A stretch of DNA of 64,000 nt, taken from contig NZ_JAEMEF010000004.1 in assembly GCF_016785945.1 (NCBI RefSeq), positions 1 through 64,000 on the forward strand, read 5' to 3'. Of this stretch, positions 1 to 40,421 are shown piece by piece. The stretch is from Olleya sediminilitoris (GTDB taxonomy: Bacteria > Bacteroidota > Bacteroidia > Flavobacteriales > Flavobacteriaceae). The notes below the pieces were generated by a model. It saw nothing but the letters and a program-made list of their open reading frames with translations. It ran no database searches and had not been told where the DNA came from. The position numbers and the translations under genes are program-made. Position 1 is the stretch's first letter. Every line of letters begins with the position of its first letter.

Positions 1-88
1 TAATTTTCTCTTTTAGAGAATTGTATTTTTTCTTTAGAGATTCAATATGGTCATTTTGTCCAAAAGAATGCAATTTTAATTCTTCCAT
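1..88 (-). CDS. Partial small protein, start only
   Basis: A minus-strand reading frame starts with ATG at 88-86 and runs off the left edge. It gives 29 residues, beginning MEELKLHSFGQNDHIESLKK and continuing as a Lys/Glu/Asn-rich, probably coiled-coil helix. An AAGGAAA-like ribosome site lies just before the ATG on the minus strand. It has the same orientation as the next two genes and is separated from them by the nested palindrome at 119-251, so it looks like another cassette gene. No family is recognised from so short a stretch. Confidence 0.5.
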   Translation of the reverse strand, partial: MEELKLHSFGQNDHIESLKKKYNSLKEKI

Positions 89-118
89 AATTTTCCTTTT
101 GAGTTCGTTCGTCAATGA

Positions 119-251
119 ATGCCAACGGTTTTGTATAAGATTAGTTGCGTTTTGACGAGGCTTATTTTCCGTAGGAAAATCAGCAGTAGTCAAAAAAGCA
201 ATGACCTTTTGATTGATCTAAAATAAGCAATTAATTTTATACAGTGTTAGC
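119..251. repeat. Cassette-boundary repeat A (attC-like)
   Basis: A ~130-bp imperfect palindrome. The left arm is GCCAACggttTTGTATAA and the right arm is TTATACagtGTTAGC, with a central short hairpin (ATTTTCC-GTA-GGAAAAT). The inner part differs from copies B and C, but the ends match them. The right end, GTTAGCTTTTAGTGC (246-260), is mirrored by GCATTAAAGCTAAC at the left end of copy B (571-584). The complementary pair therefore belongs to the DNA between A and B, as in integron cassettes. Confidence 0.6.
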
Positions 252-578
252 TTTTAGTGCTTTTAAAATTCGTTGTTTTCTTTTTTTTTACTTAGTTTTT
301 ATTCCGCAAACTTGATGAAATTCGATAGTGTTTTAATTCAGGTTTCGAGTAATAAATTCCGCAACTTGCTAAATTCAGAGTTTTAAATTCTGTTTTCTTG
401 ATTTCGCAAATAAGCTAAAAAATCAGACGTAATTCAATTTAGAGTTTGAGTGAGAATTCAGCTCGTTTTTCAAAATTCGACAACATAGTTTTTCGGTTTT
501 TACTTTCTTAAAACTCAAATAAAAATCGAAAAATAAACACGCTTTTTTTCAATTCCGCAAACTTGCTCACGCATTAAA
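252..578. other. Cassette without a recognisable gene
   Basis: About 330 bp lie between boundary repeats A and B with no reading frame longer than about 20-30 codons. It contains three copies of a direct repeat close to ATTCCGCAAACTTG (around 302-315, 356-368 and 552-565) and many related TTCG/TTCAG words. Its two ends are complementary to each other, so it behaves like a cassette. It could hold a small RNA, a promoter or the decayed remains of a gene; nothing decides between these. Confidence 0.4.
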
Positions 579-704
579 GCTAACGTGTTTGTGTATGATT
601 AGTGGCGTGTTTAAGCACCTAATTTAGCAAATAAAAACCGATTAGAAAATCCGCGAGGATTTTCGTAAGTAGGAGTGAACTAGCCATTAATTATACACGG
701 TGTT
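579..704. repeat. Cassette-boundary repeat B (attC-like)
   Basis: The left arm is GCTAACgtgttTGTGTATG and the right arm is TTATACACggtGTTCTACGC. A central hairpin, GAAAATCC-GCGA-GGATTTTC, lies at 645-664. A 31-base block around this hairpin (643-673) is identical to copy C (1369-1399). The right end reads GTTCTACGCAGTT and is mirrored by AATTGCGTAGAAC at the left of copy C (1297-1309). The stop codon of the following minus-strand gene lies inside this right end. Confidence 0.65.
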
Positions 705-1280
705 CTACGCAGTTTTTATTTCCGTTAATATTTTTCCTTCTCCATTCAGTTCATATTTATAACCTTCCCAATCTATTAATTCAATTCTGTTTTCAATAAT
801 TTTAAATTCCGTTTTTCCGTCTGGATTTACAAAAATATCTCTCGCACTAAAATTCCATTTAGTTTCTCCATTTTTATCAATTCGGCTAACTTGAATTTCT
901 CCGTGAACGATAAAATCTTCGTCAAATTCATAAATTCCGAAACAAGTTGCAACGTCATATTGATTTCTCCAATTAGCTGATAAGTCTGTTAAATTCAGAG
1001 AATATATTTGGTCAGAACAGCAAATATAAATTCGGTCATTCTTAATTAGAAATGAATTTTCAGAAATTCCAGTTGCTCCTCCAGATTCCAACAATAATGC
1101 GCTACACTTTTCAATTCCGTTTTCTGTTATTCGAATTCCGTGTTTTGAGGAAGGTTGATATTCCAATTTATATCCTAAATCGGCTGGATATTGTTTCTTA
1201 AATCTCTGACCAAATTCCGCTGAATCCAAATCAGATTCATTTGTTATTTCAATTACGGAATTTTTATATTTTACTATCAT
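705..1280 (-). CDS. Uncharacterised cassette protein, 191 aa
   Basis: No family is recognised. The protein is soluble, with no signal peptide or membrane segment. The middle (about residues 85-145) has short beta-like repeats reminiscent of PQQ/beta-propeller blades, for example DRIYICCSDQIYSLNLTD and SRIDKNGETKWNFSA. The ATG at 1280 is the only plausible start. The TAG stop falls within the arm of repeat B. The gene is flanked by mirrored GTTCTACGC and GCGTAGAAC, which makes it a discrete cassette on the minus strand. Small orphan proteins of this kind are typical cassette cargo; an immunity-like role is possible but not shown. Confidence 0.65.
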   Translation of the reverse strand: MIVKYKNSVIEITNESDLDSAEFGQRFKKQYPADLGYKLEYQPSSKHGIRITENGIEKCSALLLESGGATGISENSFLIKNDRIYICCSDQIYSLNLTDLSANWRNQYDVATCFGIYEFDEDFIVHGEIQVSRIDKNGETKWNFSARDIFVNPDGKTEFKIIENRIELIDWEGYKYELNGEGKILTEIKTA

Positions 1281-1300
1281 TTTCTTGGTTTGGTCAAATT

Positions 1301-1436
1301 GCGTAGAACGGTTTTGTATATGGTTTGTTGCGTGGTTTAAGCACTAAAGTTAGCAAATAAAAACCGAATAGAAAATCCGCGAGGATTTTCGTAAGTAGGC
1401 TAGAACTAGCAATAAATTATATACGGTGTTGGCAAC
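1301..1436. repeat. Cassette-boundary repeat C (attC-like)
   Basis: The left arm is GCGTAGAACggttTTGTATA and the right arm is TTATATACggtGTTGGCAAC, with the central hairpin at 1371-1390 identical to copy B. The right end, GTTGGCAACAGTTA, is mirrored by TAATTGTTGCCAAC just beyond the ankyrin gene (2184-2197), differing at one of 14 positions. The boundary therefore changes identity exactly between the two genes it separates. Confidence 0.65.
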
Positions 1437-1443
1437 AGTTATT

Positions 1444-2169
1444 TTACATATGTTTTTCAATCAATTCAGCAGCTTTTTTTTGACCTCTTTCTTTAGCTAA
1501 ATCAAATGCATTTTTCTTCTCTTTATTTTTTAGTTTCAAATCAGCACCGTTGTCTATTAATATCTGAATTATATCTAAATATCCTCTTTTTGCCGCTTCT
1601 CCAAGGGAAAAATCTCCATCTTTATCCTTACTGTTTACGTTTGCACCATTTTCAATAAGAAATTTAACTATTTCATAGTGTCCTTTTGAAGCAGCGTGCT
1701 CAAGAGGTGTAGCACCATCCATAGCTTTAATGTCAATTTCTGCACCATTTTGAGCTAAATATTTTACAATCTTTAGATGACCATTCCTTGCAGCTACTCT
1801 GATTGGAGTAAAATCACGGTATCCTTTAAAATTAACATCGGCTCCGTTTTCAGTTAAAAGTTTAACTATTTCAAAATAGCCTTCTTGACAAGGGAATTCT
1901 ATTGGTGTTGAGTTTCCTGGATTTACTTTGTTTACTTGATTTACATCAGCTCCATTTTTAATTAAATATTCTGAAATTTCATAGTTATTGTCGGCTGTTG
2001 CCCTCCATAGAGGAAATAGTCCATTTTTATTATATTCAGAAATATCTTCTCCTTTTTCTATAAGTGATTTAACTTTTTCTAAATTTCCTTTTTCAACAGC
2101 TTTATATAATTTTTGGGAATGTCCAATTGATGTTATTGCAATAAGTAATACAAGTAATAATTTTTTCAT
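1444..2169 (-). CDS. Secreted ankyrin-repeat protein
   Basis: 241 aa. The N-terminus MKKLLLVLLIAITSIGHSQ is a signal peptide, so the protein is exported to the periplasm or beyond. The rest consists of about six ankyrin repeats, with recurrent GHYEIVKFLIENGANVN-type units and D-G-x-T/F-P-L turns from about residue 25 to 235. Ankyrin repeats mediate protein-protein binding; no partner is evident. The gene sits between boundary C and the altered boundary D, and its cassette ends are complementary (GTTGGCAAC/GTTGCCAAC). The ATG at 2169 is directly followed by the hydrophobic signal, which supports this start. Confidence 0.85.
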   Translation of the reverse strand: MKKLLLVLLIAITSIGHSQKLYKAVEKGNLEKVKSLIEKGEDISEYNKNGLFPLWRATADNNYEISEYLIKNGADVNQVNKVNPGNSTPIEFPCQEGYFEIVKLLTENGADVNFKGYRDFTPIRVAARNGHLKIVKYLAQNGAEIDIKAMDGATPLEHAASKGHYEIVKFLIENGANVNSKDKDGDFSLGEAAKRGYLDIIQILIDNGADLKLKNKEKKNAFDLAKERGQKKAAELIEKHM

Positions 2170-2188
2170 TTATTCAGTTTTTTTAATT

Positions 2189-2262
2189 GTTGCCAACTGG
2201 TTATATGACAACTAATATAGTTGTTTTTGGGGTTATATTTCCCGTTATGACAACTTTTTGTG
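2189..2262. repeat. Divergent cassette boundary D
   Basis: It begins with GTTGCCAACTGGTTATATGA, so it carries the mirrored end of the ankyrin cassette. It lacks the B/C hairpin block and instead contains two copies of a GACAACT word (2207-2213 and near 2250) and AACTAATATAGTT. The CAACTrGTTATATrA segment recurs at 3575-3590 beside the VOC gene. This may be a second type of boundary or an insertion-point sequence. Confidence 0.4.
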
Positions 2263-2828
2263 ACTTATATCAAATAATTGTCTTTTTATTATTGTTGTTT
2301 ATTGATAGCTAAATTATAATAATGCACTTGCAAATTCAATACGTATAACTACGTATTTTTAGCCAGTGTTTATTTTGTGTTTAGATAGGTGTCTGTATTT
2401 AATTGTTTGATTTTTGTTAATGTATTGCAGAAAATTTGCTTTGGCGCATTGTGTTGAATATGTTTGTTTATGAGGTTGTTGTGTGCTTGTGTAACTAGGT
2501 TAGTAGATACAAACCGAATAGAAAATCTGGGAGTGTTTTTGTGAATAGGTTAAGGGAGTTATAAATTATGTGTAGTGTTATGTCTTGGCTTTTTAAATTC
2601 TGATTATTTTTTATAACTGTTTCGGGAACTTATGTCTAATAAACATGTTTGTTGAAAATTTGCTTTGAAGTAAGCGTAAATTTTCAGCTTGCTTTATTGT
2701 TTTTAGCATAAATCATTTATATAAGTTTTTGAAGTTGTTTTTAAGGAATATTAAAATAGTTAATTGTAAAGTGGACTTAAAAAAGAAAACGCCTTAAAAA
2801 GCAATTATTGAAGCCTGTTTTTTATAAT
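2263..2828. other. Decayed cassette region, with degenerate repeat copy E at 2452-2588
   Basis: No gene is supported here. Positions 2452-2588 align to copy C throughout: TGTTTGTTTATGAGG for the left arm, then AACCGAATAGAAAATC, AATAGGTTAAGG, and ATAAATTATGTGTAGTGTTA for the right arm. The central hairpin is broken, so this is a degenerate boundary. The right end, GTTATGTCT, resembles the inverse of AGACAAC at 3573-3579. The rest is AT-rich and shows no reading frame or structure that I can name. Confidence 0.45.
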
Positions 2829-3536
2829 TTATAGTCTTGTGCAACGGTTACTGGTGTTGGCAATCATTTTTATTTTTAATCGTTCTTCTATGTATTCTAT
2901 TTTATATTCTTTTTCATTATTTTCAATAATAGCGTTAAAAGATTGTGGTTTTATCTTTAAAGTTGTTGGAAACCAAATTTCTTTTACTTTATAGTTAGGT
3001 AACAATAAAATTCCTTCTTGATTTCCGTTAGTTCCAAATCTTTCGAAATCTCCTTTCCAAAATTTAGTACCCAATTCGTTTTCTAATTGTGTATTTATTT
3101 TTCTTACGTCATTTGTAGGCATTCCCATTTCATTTATTCCTAATACTTTTGAAATATCAAAATCAGTTTTATCGTCATTTTTCAGGTCATAACGGACAAT
3201 GAATTCAGCTACATTTCCGCTAGCATCATAAAAATAGAAAGAGTCTGCATTCCAAGATTCAAATTTTTGAGTTTTTCTACCCTTTTCAATATCTATTACT
3301 TTTGTTCTCTTTTCCATCCAATCTAATGCTTTGTTTAGATGGTTTGCTGGGATTAAAAAACAATAATGGTATTTATATTCTTTTTTGGATTTTTTAAAAG
3401 TTAATTTACTCCAACCGATTTGGACTGTAAATGAAATATCACTTTGTTTTAAAAGTTTAAAACCTAATGTTTTTGAATAGAATTTTAATTCAGACTCAAA
3501 TTTTTTTGTATAAAGTTCTAATTCTATGAATTTCAT
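2829..3536 (-). CDS. VOC-superfamily protein (glyoxalase/bleomycin-resistance fold)
   Basis: 235 aa and cytosolic. The first ~130 residues follow the VOC pattern: FIELELYTKKFESELKFYSK, TLGFKLL, and FYFYDASGNVAEFIVRYDL near residues 102-120. The C-terminal half resembles a second, diverged VOC module. VOC proteins are metal-dependent lyases, isomerases, dioxygenases or drug-binding proteins; the substrate is unknown. The last codons run through TTGCCAACACC, which looks like a boundary-repeat arm, so the natural C-terminus may have been altered by recombination. It is the right-most minus-strand gene of the cassette-like region. Confidence 0.75.
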   Translation of the reverse strand: MKFIELELYTKKFESELKFYSKTLGFKLLKQSDISFTVQIGWSKLTFKKSKKEYKYHYCFLIPANHLNKALDWMEKRTKVIDIEKGRKTQKFESWNADSFYFYDASGNVAEFIVRYDLKNDDKTDFDISKVLGINEMGMPTNDVRKINTQLENELGTKFWKGDFERFGTNGNQEGILLLPNYKVKEIWFPTTLKIKPQSFNAIIENNEKEYKIEYIEERLKIKMIANTSNRCTRL

Positions 3537-3570
3537 TAAAATTATTTTTTGTTTACGATTAGCTTAAATT

Positions 3571-3590
3571 ACAGACAACTAGTTATATAA
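3571..3590. repeat. Right-hand cassette boundary F
   Basis: ACAGACAACTAGTTATATAA shares CAACTrGTTATATrA with boundary D (2194 onward) and lies upstream of the VOC gene. It marks the last point where cassette-like boundary sequence is seen before the conserved peptidase gene. Confidence 0.35.
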
Positions 3591-3598
3591 TAATTAAA

Positions 3599-3636
3599 GG
3601 AATAAATATCCCGTAATATTACGGGATGTTTATTCC
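3599..3636 (-). terminator. Rho-independent terminator after the peptidase gene
   Basis: An 18-bp stem with one mismatch. The core is the perfect palindrome CCCGTAAT/ATTACGGG at 3610-3625, extended by GGAATAAA/TTTATTCC arms. It lies 22 bases beyond the stop of the minus-strand M3 peptidase, with T-rich sequence on both sides, so it may act in both directions. Confidence 0.65.
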
Positions 3637-3658
3637 TTTTAGTGATGATTATTTTGGT

Positions 3659-5815
3659 TTAATTATTTGTTGGTACAGGAAAACCTCTGTCGCGTAATAA
3701 GGCTTCGATTTTAGCATCACGACCTCTAAATAACCTAAAAGCTTCAGCAGGATCAATACTATTTCTTGGTGCAAATAAGTATTTAACTAATTTATCTGCT
3801 ACAGCTTTGTCATAAAAACCATCTGGTGCATTTTTAAATGCTTCAGAGGCATCACTTGTTAACACATCTGCCCACATGTATCCGTAATAGGCTGTTGCGT
3901 AGCCTTCTCCTGAAAATACGTGTCCAAAGTGTGGTGTTCTGTGACGCATTGGTAACTCGTTTGGCATATTTAATTCGGCTAAAGTTTCGCGTTCAAAAGC
4001 ATCAATATCAATGTTTTCTGGATCTGCTAAATGTAGTTTCATATCCATTAAAGCAGATGCTAAATATTCGGTTGTAGCAAATCCTTGATTAAAGGTAGAT
4101 GCTTTTTTAATTTTTTGTACTAAACTATCTGGTATAGGTTCGCCAGTTTTGTTGTGTACTAAAAATTGATTAATAACTTCGTCTGTAGATAACCAACGCT
4201 CTAATAACTGACTCTGGAACTCGGTATAATCTCTAACACCACCATTTAAAGTTGGGTATTTTACGTTAGAAGAGAAAAAGTGTAAAGCATGTCCAAATTC
4301 GTGGAAAAATGTTTCGGCATCATCCCAAGACACTAATACAGCTTCTCCTGGTGCAGGTTTTACAAAGTTTGAGTTGTTGGATGCTAATACTGTTTTTGGA
4401 CCATCAAATGTGGTGTGACTTCTGTAGGTTGTCGCCCAAGCACCTGAGCGTTTTCCTGGTCTTGCAAATGGATCTAAATACCATAAGCCTATGGCTTTAC
4501 CACTGTCTTTGTCTGTTACTTCCCAAACTTTTACATCCTCATGAAAAACAGGAACTTTACCTTCTTTTACTGGAGTAAATTTATAGTTAAATAATCGTCC
4601 AGCTGTATAAAATAGGGCTTGTGTTAACTTGTCTAATTGTAAGTATTGTTTAACCTCGTCACTGTCTAAATTATATTTTTTTTGTCTTACTTTTTCAGCA
4701 TAAAAACGGTAATCCCAAGGTTGTATTTTTAAATCATCACCTGCAACATCTTGCATGTCTGCAACTTCTTCTTTTACACGAGCTATTGCTGCTGGCCATA
4801 CAGCTTCCATTAGTCCCATAGCATTGGCTGGTGTTTTAGCCATTCGGTCTTGTAAACGCCATTCGGCATAATTACTATATCCTAATAATTTAACACGCTC
4901 TCTACGTAGTTTTAAAATTTCCGCGATAAGCGTATTATTATCATATTGGTCACCATTATCTCCTCTAGAGTAATAATTGGTCCAAACTTGTTTACGTAAT
5001 TCGCGCTCTGTACTGTAAGTCAAAAATGGATCCATTGATGATCTGGTATTGGTAATAGCATATTGTCCATCTTTACCGTTATCTGTAGCTATTTTTGCTG
5101 CCGATTTTATAAACCCATCACTTAAACCATCCAATTGGTCTTTGTTTAAGTAGGTAATGTAGTTTTCTTCGTCATGTAATACATTATCACCAAACTTATT
5201 GTAAAGGGATGATAACTCTTTATTAATTTCGGCATAGCGTTTTTTCTTTTCAGCATCCAGTTCGGCTCCATTCATTTCAAAACCTTTGTAAACCAACTCT
5301 GTCACACGTTGTTGGTCTGCAGGAAGCGGATTGGTTTGTGAGGCATCATAAACCGCTTTGACGCGTTTAAATAACGCTTCGTTTTGATTGATTTTAGAAC
5401 GATAGTCAGACAGTTTAGGTGCTAATTGACTTTGCACTTCTCTAAATTCTGGACTACTCATATTACTACTAAAAATCCCGTAGTAAGTAAATACGTTATC
5501 TAAACCGTGTCCAGCACGTTCCATAGCTTCTATGGTATTTTTAAAAGTAGGCACTTCTGTATTGTTTGCAATAGCTTCAATGTCTTTTAAACCTTGAGAC
5601 ATACCCTCAATAACTGCAGGTTGGATTTGGTCCACTTTCATTTTATCAAAAGCAGGTACACCACCATAAGGTCCAGTGTAATCTTGTAAAAGAATATTGT
5701 CACTCATGGCTGTTTCGGTTTTAGTATGTTCGGTCTTAGTTGTTTCGTCTTTACAACTTGTAGAAAACAGTAGCACTGTACAGGTTATAAAGGAATAAAT
5801 TGAGTTTGTTTTCAT
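3659..5815 (-). CDS. dcp: M3-family metallopeptidase (peptidyl-dipeptidase Dcp-like) lipoprotein
   Basis: 718 aa, a normal length for Dcp/oligopeptidase A. The N-terminus has a lipoprotein signal ending in LLFSTSC, so the enzyme is likely anchored outside the inner membrane. The zinc motif HEFGHALH lies near residue 505, inside the helical M3 fold, with the conserved region GYATAYYGYMWADVL near residue 650. M3 enzymes cut short peptides; Dcp releases C-terminal dipeptides. It is transcribed alone, ahead of a strong terminator at 3599-3636. The family call is secure; dipeptidase rather than oligopeptidase specificity is inferred from overall similarity. Confidence 0.93.
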   Translation of the reverse strand: MKTNSIYSFITCTVLLFSTSCKDETTKTEHTKTETAMSDNILLQDYTGPYGGVPAFDKMKVDQIQPAVIEGMSQGLKDIEAIANNTEVPTFKNTIEAMERAGHGLDNVFTYYGIFSSNMSSPEFREVQSQLAPKLSDYRSKINQNEALFKRVKAVYDASQTNPLPADQQRVTELVYKGFEMNGAELDAEKKKRYAEINKELSSLYNKFGDNVLHDEENYITYLNKDQLDGLSDGFIKSAAKIATDNGKDGQYAITNTRSSMDPFLTYSTERELRKQVWTNYYSRGDNGDQYDNNTLIAEILKLRRERVKLLGYSNYAEWRLQDRMAKTPANAMGLMEAVWPAAIARVKEEVADMQDVAGDDLKIQPWDYRFYAEKVRQKKYNLDSDEVKQYLQLDKLTQALFYTAGRLFNYKFTPVKEGKVPVFHEDVKVWEVTDKDSGKAIGLWYLDPFARPGKRSGAWATTYRSHTTFDGPKTVLASNNSNFVKPAPGEAVLVSWDDAETFFHEFGHALHFFSSNVKYPTLNGGVRDYTEFQSQLLERWLSTDEVINQFLVHNKTGEPIPDSLVQKIKKASTFNQGFATTEYLASALMDMKLHLADPENIDIDAFERETLAELNMPNELPMRHRTPHFGHVFSGEGYATAYYGYMWADVLTSDASEAFKNAPDGFYDKAVADKLVKYLFAPRNSIDPAEAFRLFRGRDAKIEALLRDRGFPVPTNN

Positions 5816-14918: not shown

Positions 14919-15266
14919 ATGAAAAGCGATATAGATAATTATATAGAAAATAATCATCAAAATAATTTTGAAAAAGAAGAAGCTTATATTAGAGCTAAGA
15001 AAAAAGTAGAGAAAATTGTTGGCTTTTATTGGCATTTTGCAATTTACATTGTAGTTAATATTTTTTTAATGATAATGATTTATTCTAAATCAGGAGAACC
15101 CTTTTGGAGCTTTGCTGTTTGGTCGACACCTTTATTTTGGGGAATAGGTATAGGATTTCATTTTTTAGGTGTTTTTGGGACAGATTTTTTATTTGGTAAA
15201 AACTGGGAAGAACGTAAAATTGAAAAATACATGAATAAAGAAAAAGATAATAAACGTTGGGAATAA
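14919..15266 (+). CDS. 2TM-domain protein
   Basis: 115 aa from ATG 14919. A TTG at 14898 overlapping the previous stop is not needed. The domain has an amphipathic lead (YIRAKKKVEKIVGFYWH), two membrane segments at about residues 45-63 and 68-92, and the typical tail FGKNWEERKIEKYM..KRWE. It is a close relative of the C-terminal 100 residues of the preceding kinase (KSWEEKKIKKFM..KRWN). Such 2TM proteins accompany LytS/LytTR systems in Flavobacteriaceae and may modulate the kinase in the membrane. The role is inferred from neighbourhood. Confidence 0.75.
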   Translation: MKSDIDNYIENNHQNNFEKEEAYIRAKKKVEKIVGFYWHFAIYIVVNIFLMIMIYSKSGEPFWSFAVWSTPLFWGIGIGFHFLGVFGTDFLFGKNWEERKIEKYMNKEKDNKRWE

Positions 15267-15325
15267 GCAGTTGTTTAATAAACCTAAACCAAACTAAATA
15301 AATACAAAAAACAAATATTAAAACC

Positions 15326-16081
15326 ATGAAAGTAATAATTATAGAAGACGAAAAACCATCTGCGAGACGCTTACAACGTATGCTTAAAGCAATTAATGTG
15401 GAAGCAGACACCATGTTGCATTCGGTTGAAGAATCTATAGATTGGTTTAATAATAATACACATCCAGATTTAATATTTTTAGATATTCAGCTTAGTGATG
15501 GTTTGTCTTTTGAAATTTTTGATCAAGTAGAAGTCAAGTCAGCTATTATTTTTACAACTGCTTATGATGAATATGCATTGCAAGCTTTCAAATTAAATAG
15601 TATTGATTATTTACTTAAACCTATTGATGATGAAGATTTAGAAGCTGCTGTAACAAAATATAAGGCTAGGCTTCCGCAGAAAACAAATATTGCTTTAGAC
15701 TTTGAGGATATTAAAAAACTATTGGTTAATCCAATTGATAGAGTCTACAAAAAACGTTTTTCTGTTAAAGTTGGACAACATATAAAATTAGTAAATATTG
15801 ATGAGGTTGAATGCTTTTATAGCGAAAATAAAGGGACTTACTTACATACCACAGAAGGTAGAAACTACCTTTTAGATACCACTTTAGAAGCACTTGAAAA
15901 CGAGCTGCAACCAGAAACGTTTTACAGAATTAACCGTAAGTTTTTTGTAAACATCAATGCTATTAAAGACATTATTAGCTATACAAATTCACGTTTACAA
16001 ATCAAGTTAAATAATTATAATGATGATCAGGTTATTGTGGCTAGAGAGCGTGTAAAGGACTTTAAACAATGGTTGGAGTAG
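15326..16081 (+). CDS. LytTR-family response regulator
   Basis: 251 aa. The receiver domain (about residues 1-115) has the acidic pair IIEDEKPSARRL, the phospho-acceptor region LIFLDIQLSDG (Asp near 53), the conserved TTAYDEYALQAF and the LLKPI lysine. The LytTR DNA-binding domain covers about residues 145-248 (IKLVNIDEVECFYSENKGTYL, FYRINRKFFVNINAI). Together with the LytS-like kinase at 13567 it forms a two-component system that probably controls envelope genes. It ends 3 bases from the convergent LETM1-like gene, with no visible terminator between them. Confidence 0.93.
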   Translation: MKVIIIEDEKPSARRLQRMLKAINVEADTMLHSVEESIDWFNNNTHPDLIFLDIQLSDGLSFEIFDQVEVKSAIIFTTAYDEYALQAFKLNSIDYLLKPIDDEDLEAAVTKYKARLPQKTNIALDFEDIKKLLVNPIDRVYKKRFSVKVGQHIKLVNIDEVECFYSENKGTYLHTTEGRNYLLDTTLEALENELQPETFYRINRKFFVNINAIKDIISYTNSRLQIKLNNYNDDQVIVARERVKDFKQWLE

Positions 16082-16084
16082 GTG

Positions 16085-17266
16085 TTACTCTTCTTCATCT
16101 TCAATTCTATTATCATCAAACGCGCTAGGTAATAATTTAGGAATAAATTTTACAACCAATGGTAATAACAAAGCACCTCCTGGTAAAATAAAAATAGCAA
16201 GACTAGGTATGGATTTAAACACATCTAATAGCTGTTCTTGTACTTTTTTTTGTTCGTCTTTGCTTAAATCTCTAACTGTAGATTGGGTTAAAAGTATTAA
16301 TAGTTCTTTACTTTCTAAAAGCTCTTGCGTTAGACGTTTACTATTGCGTTTTATTAACTTTAATACCATGTTGGTAGAGTTGTCATAAAACGTTTTTACA
16401 ATGTTTTTAGAGCCTAATAAAGGGACTTTACTTCTATAAGTTTTATAAAATTGGGCAATAGTTTTAGACGCCTCATTGGTTTGGTGTTGTGTTAGATTTA
16501 GTTGTTCGCCTAAGTTGTTTAAAAATAAAACCTCTTCATTATCTAATTTTGCATCAGTCCATGTTGCCATAGCAGCTAGGTCTAAACAGTATCTAGCAAA
16601 TAAATTAGTGTCAACAGAGGCAATAGCTTCATTAAACAATAAAACACTATCTCTTTGGTATCTTAATGATTGTTCAAAAAGTTCAATTAAGCTATTATCG
16701 TAATCAGATTTTTGTTTTTTACTATTTAAAGTGTTTAAAACAATACTTTCTATTATAGATTCATATTCTTTTATAGTTTCATCATTAGCAACTCCAGTTT
16801 TTAAATAATTTCTAAAGGCTAATACATCAACAAATAATAAGGCATTGGTGATAAAGTAATTAAAGCTTTTGTCAATTAAATTATCATCAATTTGAATACG
16901 TTTATTTATAATCTTTTCGGTTTGATCTTTAATATCTTTAGACCTAATTATAGATTGTAAAAATGTAACTTTTCCTTTGTTAATAGTATTATAAAAATTA
17001 ACCACTTCGGTATAAAAATCTTCTGTGGTATTATGGTTTGTGTAGGCAATATGCAGTGCAATGACTAAATTTATTTTACAAATTTCGTCTGCTTCAAAAT
17101 CGTTGTCTTTTACCCAATTATTTACAACTGTTACATTACTTCCGTATATAAAACCACAATCTCTAAAGTGTCTGTAATACACCTCCAAGTCATTGTCTTT
17201 AAACAGCTCATGTGGTTTAAGCTCTTTAAGTAATTTTTTAATCCAGCCTGAAGCAGAAGGGTTCAT
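16085..17266 (-). CDS. LETM1-related protein with a TerB-like middle domain
   Basis: 393 aa. The C-terminus carries a LETM1-like segment, SIPSLAIFILPGGALLLPLV followed by KFIPKLLPSAF (about residues 350-382), which is hydrophobic and ends in an acidic tail. The middle (about 225-265) has AAMATWTDAKLDNEEVLFLN, resembling the acidic-cluster TerB fold. The rest is helical. Eukaryotic LETM1 works in mitochondrial cation exchange; the bacterial relatives are uncharacterised. Membrane attachment through the LETM1 segment is likely. The gene is monocistronic, with its stop abutting the LytTR gene. Confidence 0.7.
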   Translation of the reverse strand: MNPSASGWIKKLLKELKPHELFKDNDLEVYYRHFRDCGFIYGSNVTVVNNWVKDNDFEADEICKINLVIALHIAYTNHNTTEDFYTEVVNFYNTINKGKVTFLQSIIRSKDIKDQTEKIINKRIQIDDNLIDKSFNYFITNALLFVDVLAFRNYLKTGVANDETIKEYESIIESIVLNTLNSKKQKSDYDNSLIELFEQSLRYQRDSVLLFNEAIASVDTNLFARYCLDLAAMATWTDAKLDNEEVLFLNNLGEQLNLTQHQTNEASKTIAQFYKTYRSKVPLLGSKNIVKTFYDNSTNMVLKLIKRNSKRLTQELLESKELLILLTQSTVRDLSKDEQKKVQEQLLDVFKSIPSLAIFILPGGALLLPLVVKFIPKLLPSAFDDNRIEDEEE

Positions 17267-38621: not shown

Positions 38622-40421
38622 ATGAACAATTTAGATTACGGAATTATAGGAAATTGTAGAAGTGCAGCTTTAATATCAAAAGATGCATCAGTAGATTGGT
38701 GTTGTTTGCCTAAATTTGATTCAGCATCTGTTTTCGCTAAGTTGTTAGATGATAATATAGGAGGTAGTTTTGGATTTACTGTTGACGATGGCTATACTAC
38801 AGAACAATTTTATCTAGAAGATACAGCAATATTAGTAACACGATTTACAGAAGGAGATAATATATTTGAAGTTGTTGACTTTATGCCAAGATATCATAAG
38901 CCAAACGGAAGCTACCATTCTCCTCCAGAGTTTATTAGATATATAAAATACATCTCTGGACAACCAAAAATAAAGGTAGCTTATGACCCTAAATTAGAAT
39001 ATGCTAAAGGTGTAACTTCAACCTATGTAAAAGATGATTTTATTGTCAGTTTAAATAATGAAGACACTTATGATACATTATTTTTATATACAGATTTAGA
39101 CAAAGAAAAGGTCTTAAATGGAGATGTTATAACATTAGATTCTGATCATTTTTTCTTGGTAGGTTATAACGAAAAATTATTTGTACCAAACTTGAAATAT
39201 GCAAGTTTAGAATATGAGCGTACTAAAGTTTATTGGTTAAATTGGTTAGAGCGTACACCTACATATAAGAAATATAACAAACAGATTTCACGAAGTGCCA
39301 TGACTTTAAAATTACTAAGTTATGATAAAACAGGAGCAGTTTTAGCAGCTGCGACCACATCTTTACCAGAAACTATAGGAGAAGTCAGAAACTGGGATTA
39401 TCGTTTTTGTTGGATTAGAGATGCATCCATGGTCATTAAGGTCATGTCAAAACTTGGTCATAAAAATATAGCCAGACGTTACTTGAAGTTTATTATAGAT
39501 TTGATGCCTGATAAGGATGAAAAACTGCAAATCATGTATGGTATAAGTGGAGAAAAAAAATTAACAGAAACCTCTTTAGACCATCTATCAGGTTACAAAA
39601 ACTCAAGTCCAGTTAGAGTTGGTAATGCTGCTTATATGCAAAAGCAAAATGATATATATGGTATATTAATGGATGTAATACATCAGTTACTTCTTAATTT
39701 TAGTAATGATATCGATAATGGAGAAGAGTTGTGGACCATGACCAAAGGTATTGTTTGGGTAGTAAGTAGTCATTGGCAAGAACCAGATAAAGGTATTTGG
39801 GAATTTAGAGAAGGAGATCAGCATTTTACGTTTTCAAAAGTATTATGTTGGACAGCAGTAGATAAAGCTTTAAAAGTAGCCAAAATATTAGGTAAAACAT
39901 CCAAATTACCACGTTGGGAAGCTTTAGAACAAGATATTAGAAAAGACATCATGCAAAATGCTTGGAACGAAAAAGCACAAGCTTTTACACAAGCTTATAA
40001 CTCTGAGGATTTAGATGCCTCAGTCTTATTAATGGAATCTTATGGATTTATTGATGCAAAACACCCTAAATTTGTAAGCACAGTTAAAGCCATAGAACGC
40101 GACTTATGTTATGAAGGTTTATTATATAGATATAAAAATAAAGACGATTTTGGTTTACCTTCATCATCTTTTACTATTTGTACGTTTTGGTTTATAAATA
40201 GTTTATATAAAATAGGAGAGGAGCAAAAAGCAACAGAACAATTCGAAAAACTGTTGTCTTACAGTAATCATTTAGGCTTGTTTAGTGAAGATATAGATTT
40301 TAAAACAAAACGATTACTAGGTAATTTCCCACAAGCTTATTCGCATTTAGCTTTAATTGAAACTGCTATTAATTTATCTAATGTTACAGCAGAAGAAAAA
40401 GTAAAAGACTCTATAAGTTAA
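38622..40421 (+). CDS. GH15 glycoside hydrolase (glucoamylase- or trehalase-like)
   Basis: 599 aa, cytosolic with no signal peptide. The N-terminal GH15 beta-domain opens with YGIIGNCRSAALISKDASVD followed by WCCLPKFDS. The catalytic (alpha/alpha)6 barrel has EVRNWDYRFCWIRDASMV (about residues 252-270), GIWEFREGDQHFTFSK (about 395-410, likely catalytic Glu) and a late acid in GLFSEDIDF. The family splits alpha-glucosidic bonds, and some bacterial members are trehalases. The divergent pairing with the trehalose synthase suggests trehalose breakdown or recycling; this is contextual inference. A long terminator follows. Confidence 0.88.
   Translation: MNNLDYGIIGNCRSAALISKDASVDWCCLPKFDSASVFAKLLDDNIGGSFGFTVDDGYTTEQFYLEDTAILVTRFTEGDNIFEVVDFMPRYHKPNGSYHSPPEFIRYIKYISGQPKIKVAYDPKLEYAKGVTSTYVKDDFIVSLNNEDTYDTLFLYTDLDKEKVLNGDVITLDSDHFFLVGYNEKLFVPNLKYASLEYERTKVYWLNWLERTPTYKKYNKQISRSAMTLKLLSYDKTGAVLAAATTSLPETIGEVRNWDYRFCWIRDASMVIKVMSKLGHKNIARRYLKFIIDLMPDKDEKLQIMYGISGEKKLTETSLDHLSGYKNSSPVRVGNAAYMQKQNDIYGILMDVIHQLLLNFSNDIDNGEELWTMTKGIVWVVSSHWQEPDKGIWEFREGDQHFTFSKVLCWTAVDKALKVAKILGKTSKLPRWEALEQDIRKDIMQNAWNEKAQAFTQAYNSEDLDASVLLMESYGFIDAKHPKFVSTVKAIERDLCYEGLLYRYKNKDDFGLPSSSFTICTFWFINSLYKIGEEQKATEQFEKLLSYSNHLGLFSEDIDFKTKRLLGNFPQAYSHLALIETAINLSNVTAEEKVKDSIS

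Follow-up and report, generated by a model that had tools for sequence, protein, structure and literature searches.

The first 64 kb of contig C32 in the draft genome of Olleya sediminilitoris, a stretch of 64,000 nucleotides that we call the window, opens with an array of small minus-strand gene cassettes separated by hairpin-like repeats. The original prediction described it as an integron-like cassette array without an integrase, possibly of a distinct kind. Comparative analysis indicates that the array very probably belongs to a functional analogue of integrons, in which a Xer-type recombinase would carry out the recombination.

Because the window begins at the contig start, the array is cut at base 1, where part of a first cassette (positions 1–123, minus strand; gene MTNELKRK...) is left. 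The same cassette lies in a second array of this genome (L041, ~4576-4803); window positions 1–104 are identical to that copy, identity stops at AACG, and both arrays diverge past that point. An attC-like site bounded by AAC and GTT follows (124–248, plus strand; 96.6 bits with our covariance model R1) and belongs to a cassette whose body (249–581, minus strand) holds no open reading frame (ORF) of 60 amino acids or more and whose terminal arms, AGCTTTT and AGCTTTA, match at 6 of 7 positions. The next site (582–704, plus strand; 128.7 bits) precedes a 191-amino-acid minus-strand gene at 705–1280, in a cassette (705–1306) with arms CTACGCA and CTACGCA (7/7); its product matches nothing in Pfam or PADLOC at E 0.001. 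A third site (1307–1430, plus strand; 131.2 bits) serves the cassette at 1431–2194 (arms GGCAACA and GGCAACA, 7/7), which carries a 241-amino-acid ankyrin-repeat gene at 1444–2169 on the minus strand. Ankyrin families match 1 of 45 scanned proteins, which we assigned to this gene by reading its repeats. To the right of the ankyrin cassette the array ends at AACTGGTTATATGACAACTAATATAG, from window position 2195 onward, in an attI-like head (AACTGGTTATATGACAAC..., 2195–2262, plus strand), one of 14 copies in the genome; the same sequence adjoins a recombinase gene on contig C3. The repeats predicted to separate the genes are thus real, but measure ~124 bp rather than ~130 bp and lie a few bases from where they were first drawn.

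Arms pair within cassettes

The observation on which the original prediction turned, that arms are complementary across the gene and hence within a cassette, and not across the ~124-bp site, held on a larger scale. The arms compared were the 7 nt after GTT and the 7 nt before the next AAC. Over 8 arm positions in 61 cassettes (29 from this genome and 32 from five of the 13 loci scanned outside it), mean identity was 6.03 within cassettes and 2.64 within sites; permuting the same cassettes gave a mean of 2.77 (sd 0.17), with a maximum of 3.44 in 2000 permutations. Position 8 holds identical bases in only 7% of these cassettes, with G opposite T, and pairing resumes at positions 9 and 10 (85% and 89%).

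The covariance model was then used to add sites missed earlier, bringing the searched stretches of this genome to 63 site matches. Arms matched at 6–7 of 7 positions in 36 of 42 intervals (20,000 permutations: mean 2.6, maximum 10), and 34 distinct arm 7-mers occurred among the 42 intervals. In representatives of two other genera, arms paired equally well in 87 of 92 intervals of a complete genome (G113; highest permutation 15) and 20 of 27 intervals of a second genome (G163; highest permutation 8), together 107 of 119; further outside arrays gave 5/7 (L128) and 6/9 (L129). ORFs of at least 60 amino acids were present in 40 of the 42 own-genome intervals, antisense to the site in 40/40 (median interval 682 nt, median ORF 201 amino acids), and ORFs were likewise antisense in 48/49 cases in G113 and 25/26 in G163.

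A classical attC hairpin is bounded by RYYYAAC and GTTRRRY. Only 2 of the 42 own-genome arms, and 22 of the 119 in G113 and G163, fit GTTRRRY, the consensus as given in the accessible part of PMC9892861.

A predicted fold with a favoured strand

The site is a ~124-bp imperfect hairpin bounded by AAC and GTT and built of R-like arms, a spacer, an L-like stem and a variable tip. In an alignment of 31 copies, taken from Polaribacter-type loci as well as this genome, 12 of the 16 pairs of the L-like stem have changed on both sides, and two are retained as G-U in 26 and 29 copies. Since such G-T positions can pair on one strand only, they single out the strand opposite the genes. Predicted folds point the same way: in circular sites rebuilt from cassettes with 6–7 of 7 arm matches, the strand opposite the genes folded better in 47/47 cases (mean −26.8 versus −22.5 kcal/mol), and in the integrated form it did so in 43/47. 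Known attC sites likewise favour one strand, via unpaired features, according to the portion of PMC8946536 available to us.

A recombinase beside the attI-like site

The 14 genomic copies of the attI-like head are 91-100% identical, and a positional tally places a site within ~1 kb, on the expected side, of at least 9 of them. A tyrosine recombinase gene on contig C3 (L040:3462-4610, minus strand) has the attI-like sequence immediately downstream. The absence of an integrase therefore stands for the window array, which starts its contig, and not for the genome, where the gene lies on another contig and carries an internal TAA. The proposed search for a tyrosine integrase beside such repeats thus located one both here and in other genomes. 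By sequence, 10 of 12 loci have ATATAACNAGTT after the recombinase gene and the other two, L083 and L057, have variants of it; at five Polaribacter-type recombinase loci the first cassette after each gene differs.

We scanned 30 related recombinase loci together with flanks of ~1.5 kb, or less where a contig ended sooner. A site was present at 18, always on the 3′ side of the gene (18/18), and 29 of the 30 have no stop inside the gene. Across 13 loci from Polaribacter, Tenacibaculum and related metagenome-assembled genomes, with flanks of up to 10 kb, 48 sites at 8 loci all lay downstream and no site was found in the 10 kb upstream; four of the five site-less loci have less than 0.7 kb of sequence past the gene. 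Among the matches listed, 33 same-contig recombinase–site pairs at 20 loci (a tally that leaves out G001, where the geometry is opposite) all have the site 3′ and on the opposite strand. G113 carries 95 sites in 80 kb, in an array ending at the recombinase, and G163 carries 33 in 40 kb; all 128 of these sites are on one strand. Position and co-occurrence thus suggest that this enzyme serves the sites.

In G001, a gene that reads as reverse-transcriptase-like (L133:13048-14085) stands directly beside the last site of the array. The island-type integrase gene at L037:2249-3466 begins right at an array end. We rejected it as the enzyme of the system, despite the adjoining site, because it reads as the head of an unrelated gene set; its position indicates that islands may insert at array sites.

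A recombinase family distinct from IntI

All 26 aligned members match the PF00589 core, with R, K, H..R and Y invariant or nearly so. The best NCBIfam match of one intact member (member 1) is the XerA-type model NF040815 (220.8 bits against a cut-off of 220), which matches all 26 at E 1e-5 or better, and the best solved-structure matches are 5hxy and 4a8e. Tested against the IntI model TIGR02249 (cut-off 265 bits), the same member reached 207.6 bits and the best pieces in the Olleya genome 111.9 and 89.8 bits, all below cut-off. The ~42-residue IntI patch III region is absent: the recombinase has 20 residues where IntI4 (2A3V) has 63. Correspondingly, the spacing from GLR..E to H.LRH is 91 residues in 26/26 members, 93-98 in three Xer proteins and 133 in one IntI, and that of a second pattern is 58 residues in the 18 readable of 29 loci against 100 in two IntI.

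In a tree of 43 proteins, which did not include L106, the 26 recombinases, 12 IntI and 5 Xer proteins were each separated by a well-supported branch (98/95, 100/99 and 98/94); branches are long and the deep order is unsure. Rooted on Xer, the tree makes the recombinase family and IntI sisters, which may then share an ancestor, patch III having been gained or lost later.

All 26 aligned members have ~80 extra N-terminal residues. The predicted model of this domain (mean predicted local distance difference test score, pLDDT, 85.6) has the HARP domain of SMARCAL1 (4o66) as its top Foldseek match, at a weak E of 0.039; VIA Z scores were 4.3 for 4o66 and 6.6 for archaeal XPB, tied with eIF1-type proteins. 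Pfam HARP (PF07443) matched 2 of 25 members (best 23.0 bits, below the cut-off of 25), and DUF5710 matched 7 of 25 weakly (best E 0.011). The predicted fold is thus a lead towards a HARP-like domain and not proof of one. HARP domains are known for branched-DNA binding. The idea that the domain stands in for patch III is weakened because two recombinases near arrays, those of G001 and G159, lack it.

Probable cassette mobility and cargo

One cassette is common to two arrays of the Olleya genome at 99.3% identity, and the identity starts exactly at AAC in the gene's 3′ site and stops at AACG in the site that follows. These limits define the unit as a gene with its 3′ site, as in integrons. The boundaries are seen in this complete case and at one end of another, the first cassette of the window.

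The original prediction would have fallen had relatives carried the same genes between the same flanks. In one same-genus genome, the neighbouring peptidase gene is kept at 79% identity, and in the 20 kb taken there the window array is absent, with a single site 7.7 kb off. On plasmids of two Tenacibaculum finnmarkense strains, both flanks are 98.6-98.8% identical and the genes between them differ, the common pieces being the site and an insertion element. Together with arm pairing and the AAC-bounded shared cassette, this differing cargo supports the proposed cassette exchange at attC-like sites.

In T. finnmarkense, the plasmid site has a tyrosine recombinase as its immediate neighbour (L113:11772-14005, 14998-17229; L114:18019-19136), accompanied in L113 by an IS91-type transposase; the two plasmids carry identical sequence past GTT, which looks like insertion of such elements at that point. 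In L086 (13195-14430 and 19235-19852), one 495-nt cassette occurs three times in a single array. In the lytic Polaribacter phage P12002L our model finds sites, including 54-56 nt forms beside methyltransferase genes (L108:38036-38089, 38880-38935). The presence of sites on phages and plasmids suggests that cassettes travel.

Like that of sedentary integrons, the cargo is varied: 45 cassette or array proteins match 41 Pfam families, including ankyrin, tetratricopeptide repeat (TPR) and ATP-grasp, and 22 of the 25 families listed match one protein each. PADLOC found eight families among the 45 proteins, one of them NucC-like, with one protein each, which leaves an enrichment for defence unsupported.

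Distribution across Bacteroidota

We surveyed 299 Flavobacteriaceae genomes, calling the site at E 1e-6 or better, with at most 11 candidates scored per genome, and the recombinase at a threshold of E 1e-40; the numbers of sites counted in each genome are in part lower bounds. The site was found in 243 genomes and the recombinase in 190, with both in 176, recombinase alone in 14, site alone in 67 and neither in 42 (Fisher p 8e-11). No IntI above cut-off was found in any of the 299, and the same model passed in 84 of 296 genomes from across Bacteroidota, which served as a positive control. Across the phylum, the site was present in 37 of 247 genomes, 21 of them outside Flavobacteriaceae, and the recombinase at E 1e-80 in seven of 247, one of them outside the family. 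These data indicate that the system is widespread in marine Flavobacteria, where it appears to have gone largely unnoticed.

Sequence beyond the window array

The attI-like sequence also starts a dispersed element of ~610 bp (L048:2014-2630, L048:4453-5066, L049:6274-6890 and L037:10579-11184), part of which is found at window 2191-2417 and which, by reading alone, runs into an apparent IS110-type transposase end. Past the head of the window array lies a degenerate attC-like site (2457–2579, plus strand; R1, 26.4 bits, E 0.02), then an ORF at 2829–3536 on the minus strand, which we take to be VOC-like (vicinal oxygen chelate). Its flanking arms, GGCAATC and GTCTGTA, match at 3 of 7 positions, placing it outside any paired-arm cassette. 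A tentative second, diverged attI-like end (AACTAGTTATATAATAAT..., 3577–3640, plus strand), recognized by reading the sequence, contains an inverted repeat with a palindrome at 3596-3639. A search of the first 8 kb against Rfam gave four matches at E up to 1, none reaching its gathering score.

A proposed mechanism and its alternatives

We propose a chromosomal cassette system that would work like an integron and of which the window holds a part. Single-gene cassettes would be inserted and excised by a Xer-type tyrosine recombinase dedicated to the system, whose gene lies at an attI-like site of its own and which would probably act in trans on the dispersed attI-like copies. Each cassette would end in a ~124-bp site that folds as a single DNA strand, and the arms would pair only in the circular cassette or when a cassette bridges its two ends by folding. 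Recombination would involve the strand opposite the genes, with the joint, and presumably the exact cut, at the GTT of the gene strand.

Several observations weigh against this proposal. The only recombinase copy found in the Olleya genome has an in-frame TAA at codon 197, so its arrays may be frozen or served by another enzyme, and one of five other own-genome recombinase loci scanned (the island-type L004, that is L037:2249-3466) also adjoins a site. In G001 the array lies on the 5′ side of a 272-amino-acid recombinase without the N-terminal extension, and the G159 recombinase has 305 amino acids with its array on the usual side; neither the extension nor the orientation is therefore universal. 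Within Flavobacteriaceae, 67 of 299 genomes have sites without this recombinase and 14 the reverse; outside the family, only one of 21 site-bearing genomes has it at E 1e-80. The predicted arm complementarity, borne out in this genome, G113, G163, L128 and L129, fails in some other places: arms pair in 1/4 intervals of L127, 0/3 of L130 and 0/4 of the T. finnmarkense plasmids, some of whose sites are followed by an insertion element.

Three other explanations were considered. The array could belong to an ordinary IntI integron, or to a CALIN (an attC cluster lacking integrase), with merely divergent attC sites. Its logic is the same, with an attI-like site, an attC-like hairpin, a GTT boundary and a single gene per cassette, and IntI and the recombinase family are sisters when the tree is rooted on Xer. 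Moreover, the accessible text of PMC9892861 describes attC-like sites in phage P12002L and reports that IntI1 recombined one of them, the top strand giving no recombinants. That site could not be matched to those our model finds; should it belong here, it would be direct evidence of a recombinogenic site family. In G361, from another class of the phylum, a degenerate site (L126:10149-10272) and a true IntI are also ~1 kb apart, although this single site, whose right end lacks GTT, is not counted as strong evidence. Against these points, no Flavobacteriaceae genome reaches the IntI cut-off that so many genomes of the phylum pass, the recombinases adjoining arrays lack the patch III region, and few arms fit GTTRRRY. 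We therefore regard an IntI system as improbable; the evidence supports the suggestion in the original prediction that the system is distinct from classical integrons.

Dispersed repeats of the repetitive extragenic palindromic (REP) or miniature inverted-repeat transposable element (MITE) kind, with genes shuffled by homologous recombination between sites, would account for sites alike enough to break assemblies, and several contigs do begin or end near one. Such shuffling leaves unexplained why 34 distinct arms among 42 intervals should pair within cassettes, why the stem covaries and why sites keep a single orientation, and it does not account for breakpoints that fall at AAC instead of within the repeat; we consider it very improbable. 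Equally so is the view that the genes are individual small transposons, each bounded by terminal inverted repeats of its own and moved by a transposase encoded elsewhere. The arms do resemble 10-bp inverted ends flanking each gene, yet they vary by unit, so that an end-recognizing transposase would find nothing constant beyond GTT and AAC. The units also share a single head-to-tail orientation beside a recombinase and an attI-like site, and the unit includes the 124-bp site.

Comparison with known systems

The open-licence PubMed Central literature, as far as its text was accessible, yielded no description of this cassette system. Within Bacteroidetes proper, the available sections on IntegronFinder 2.0 (PMC9024848) name a single complete integron, that of Salinibacter ruber, and leave unsaid whether attC clusters were seen in Flavobacteria; those of PMC9668308 count Bacteroidota among integron-bearing phyla and hold the patch III region necessary for integron recombination. 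We see about an even chance that the arrays represent a second molecular solution to integron-type capture: a XerA-like lineage without patch III, mostly with a HARP-like domain, acting on folded single-stranded sites whose arms are nearly unconstrained in sequence and must only pair, with many attI-like sites per genome and arrays of superintegron size across Flavobacteriaceae and some other Bacteroidota. If the system works, a very large reservoir of gene capture has been missed, the enzyme requirement for integron-type recombination needs revising, and pairing as the sole demand on the arms can be put to the test.

Sedentary chromosomal integrons, of the Vibrio superintegron type, consist of IntI, attI and arrays of attC sites. 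The present system resembles them in its head-to-tail single-gene cassettes, its attI-like site beside the recombinase, the 3′ site carried by each cassette and the GTT joint, and also in hairpin architecture, strand asymmetry and array size, here up to 95 sites. It differs in a recombinase that is not IntI but forms its own clade, lacks patch III and has an extra N-terminal domain in most members seen. Its arms mostly depart from the R-box consensus and are nearly unconstrained in sequence, with pairing that covers 7 nt and, beyond the conserved G/T position, 2-3 more. It differs too in its 14 attI-like copies in one genome and in a recombinase that usually points toward the array.

The system also recalls the Treponema integron, in which, according to the available part of PMC3607928, intI is transcribed toward attI; in both, recombinase and cassettes share one strand. 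There the enzyme is termed intI, whereas the Flavobacteriaceae recombinase fails the IntI tests. The window array is like a CALIN in having no adjoining recombinase, but unlike one it is headed by an attI-like copy and its sites are of another type. The enzyme itself is most like archaeal XerA, the best NCBIfam match of member 1 being NF040815, and is set apart from it by its place beside cassette arrays and, in most members seen, by ~80 extra N-terminal residues.

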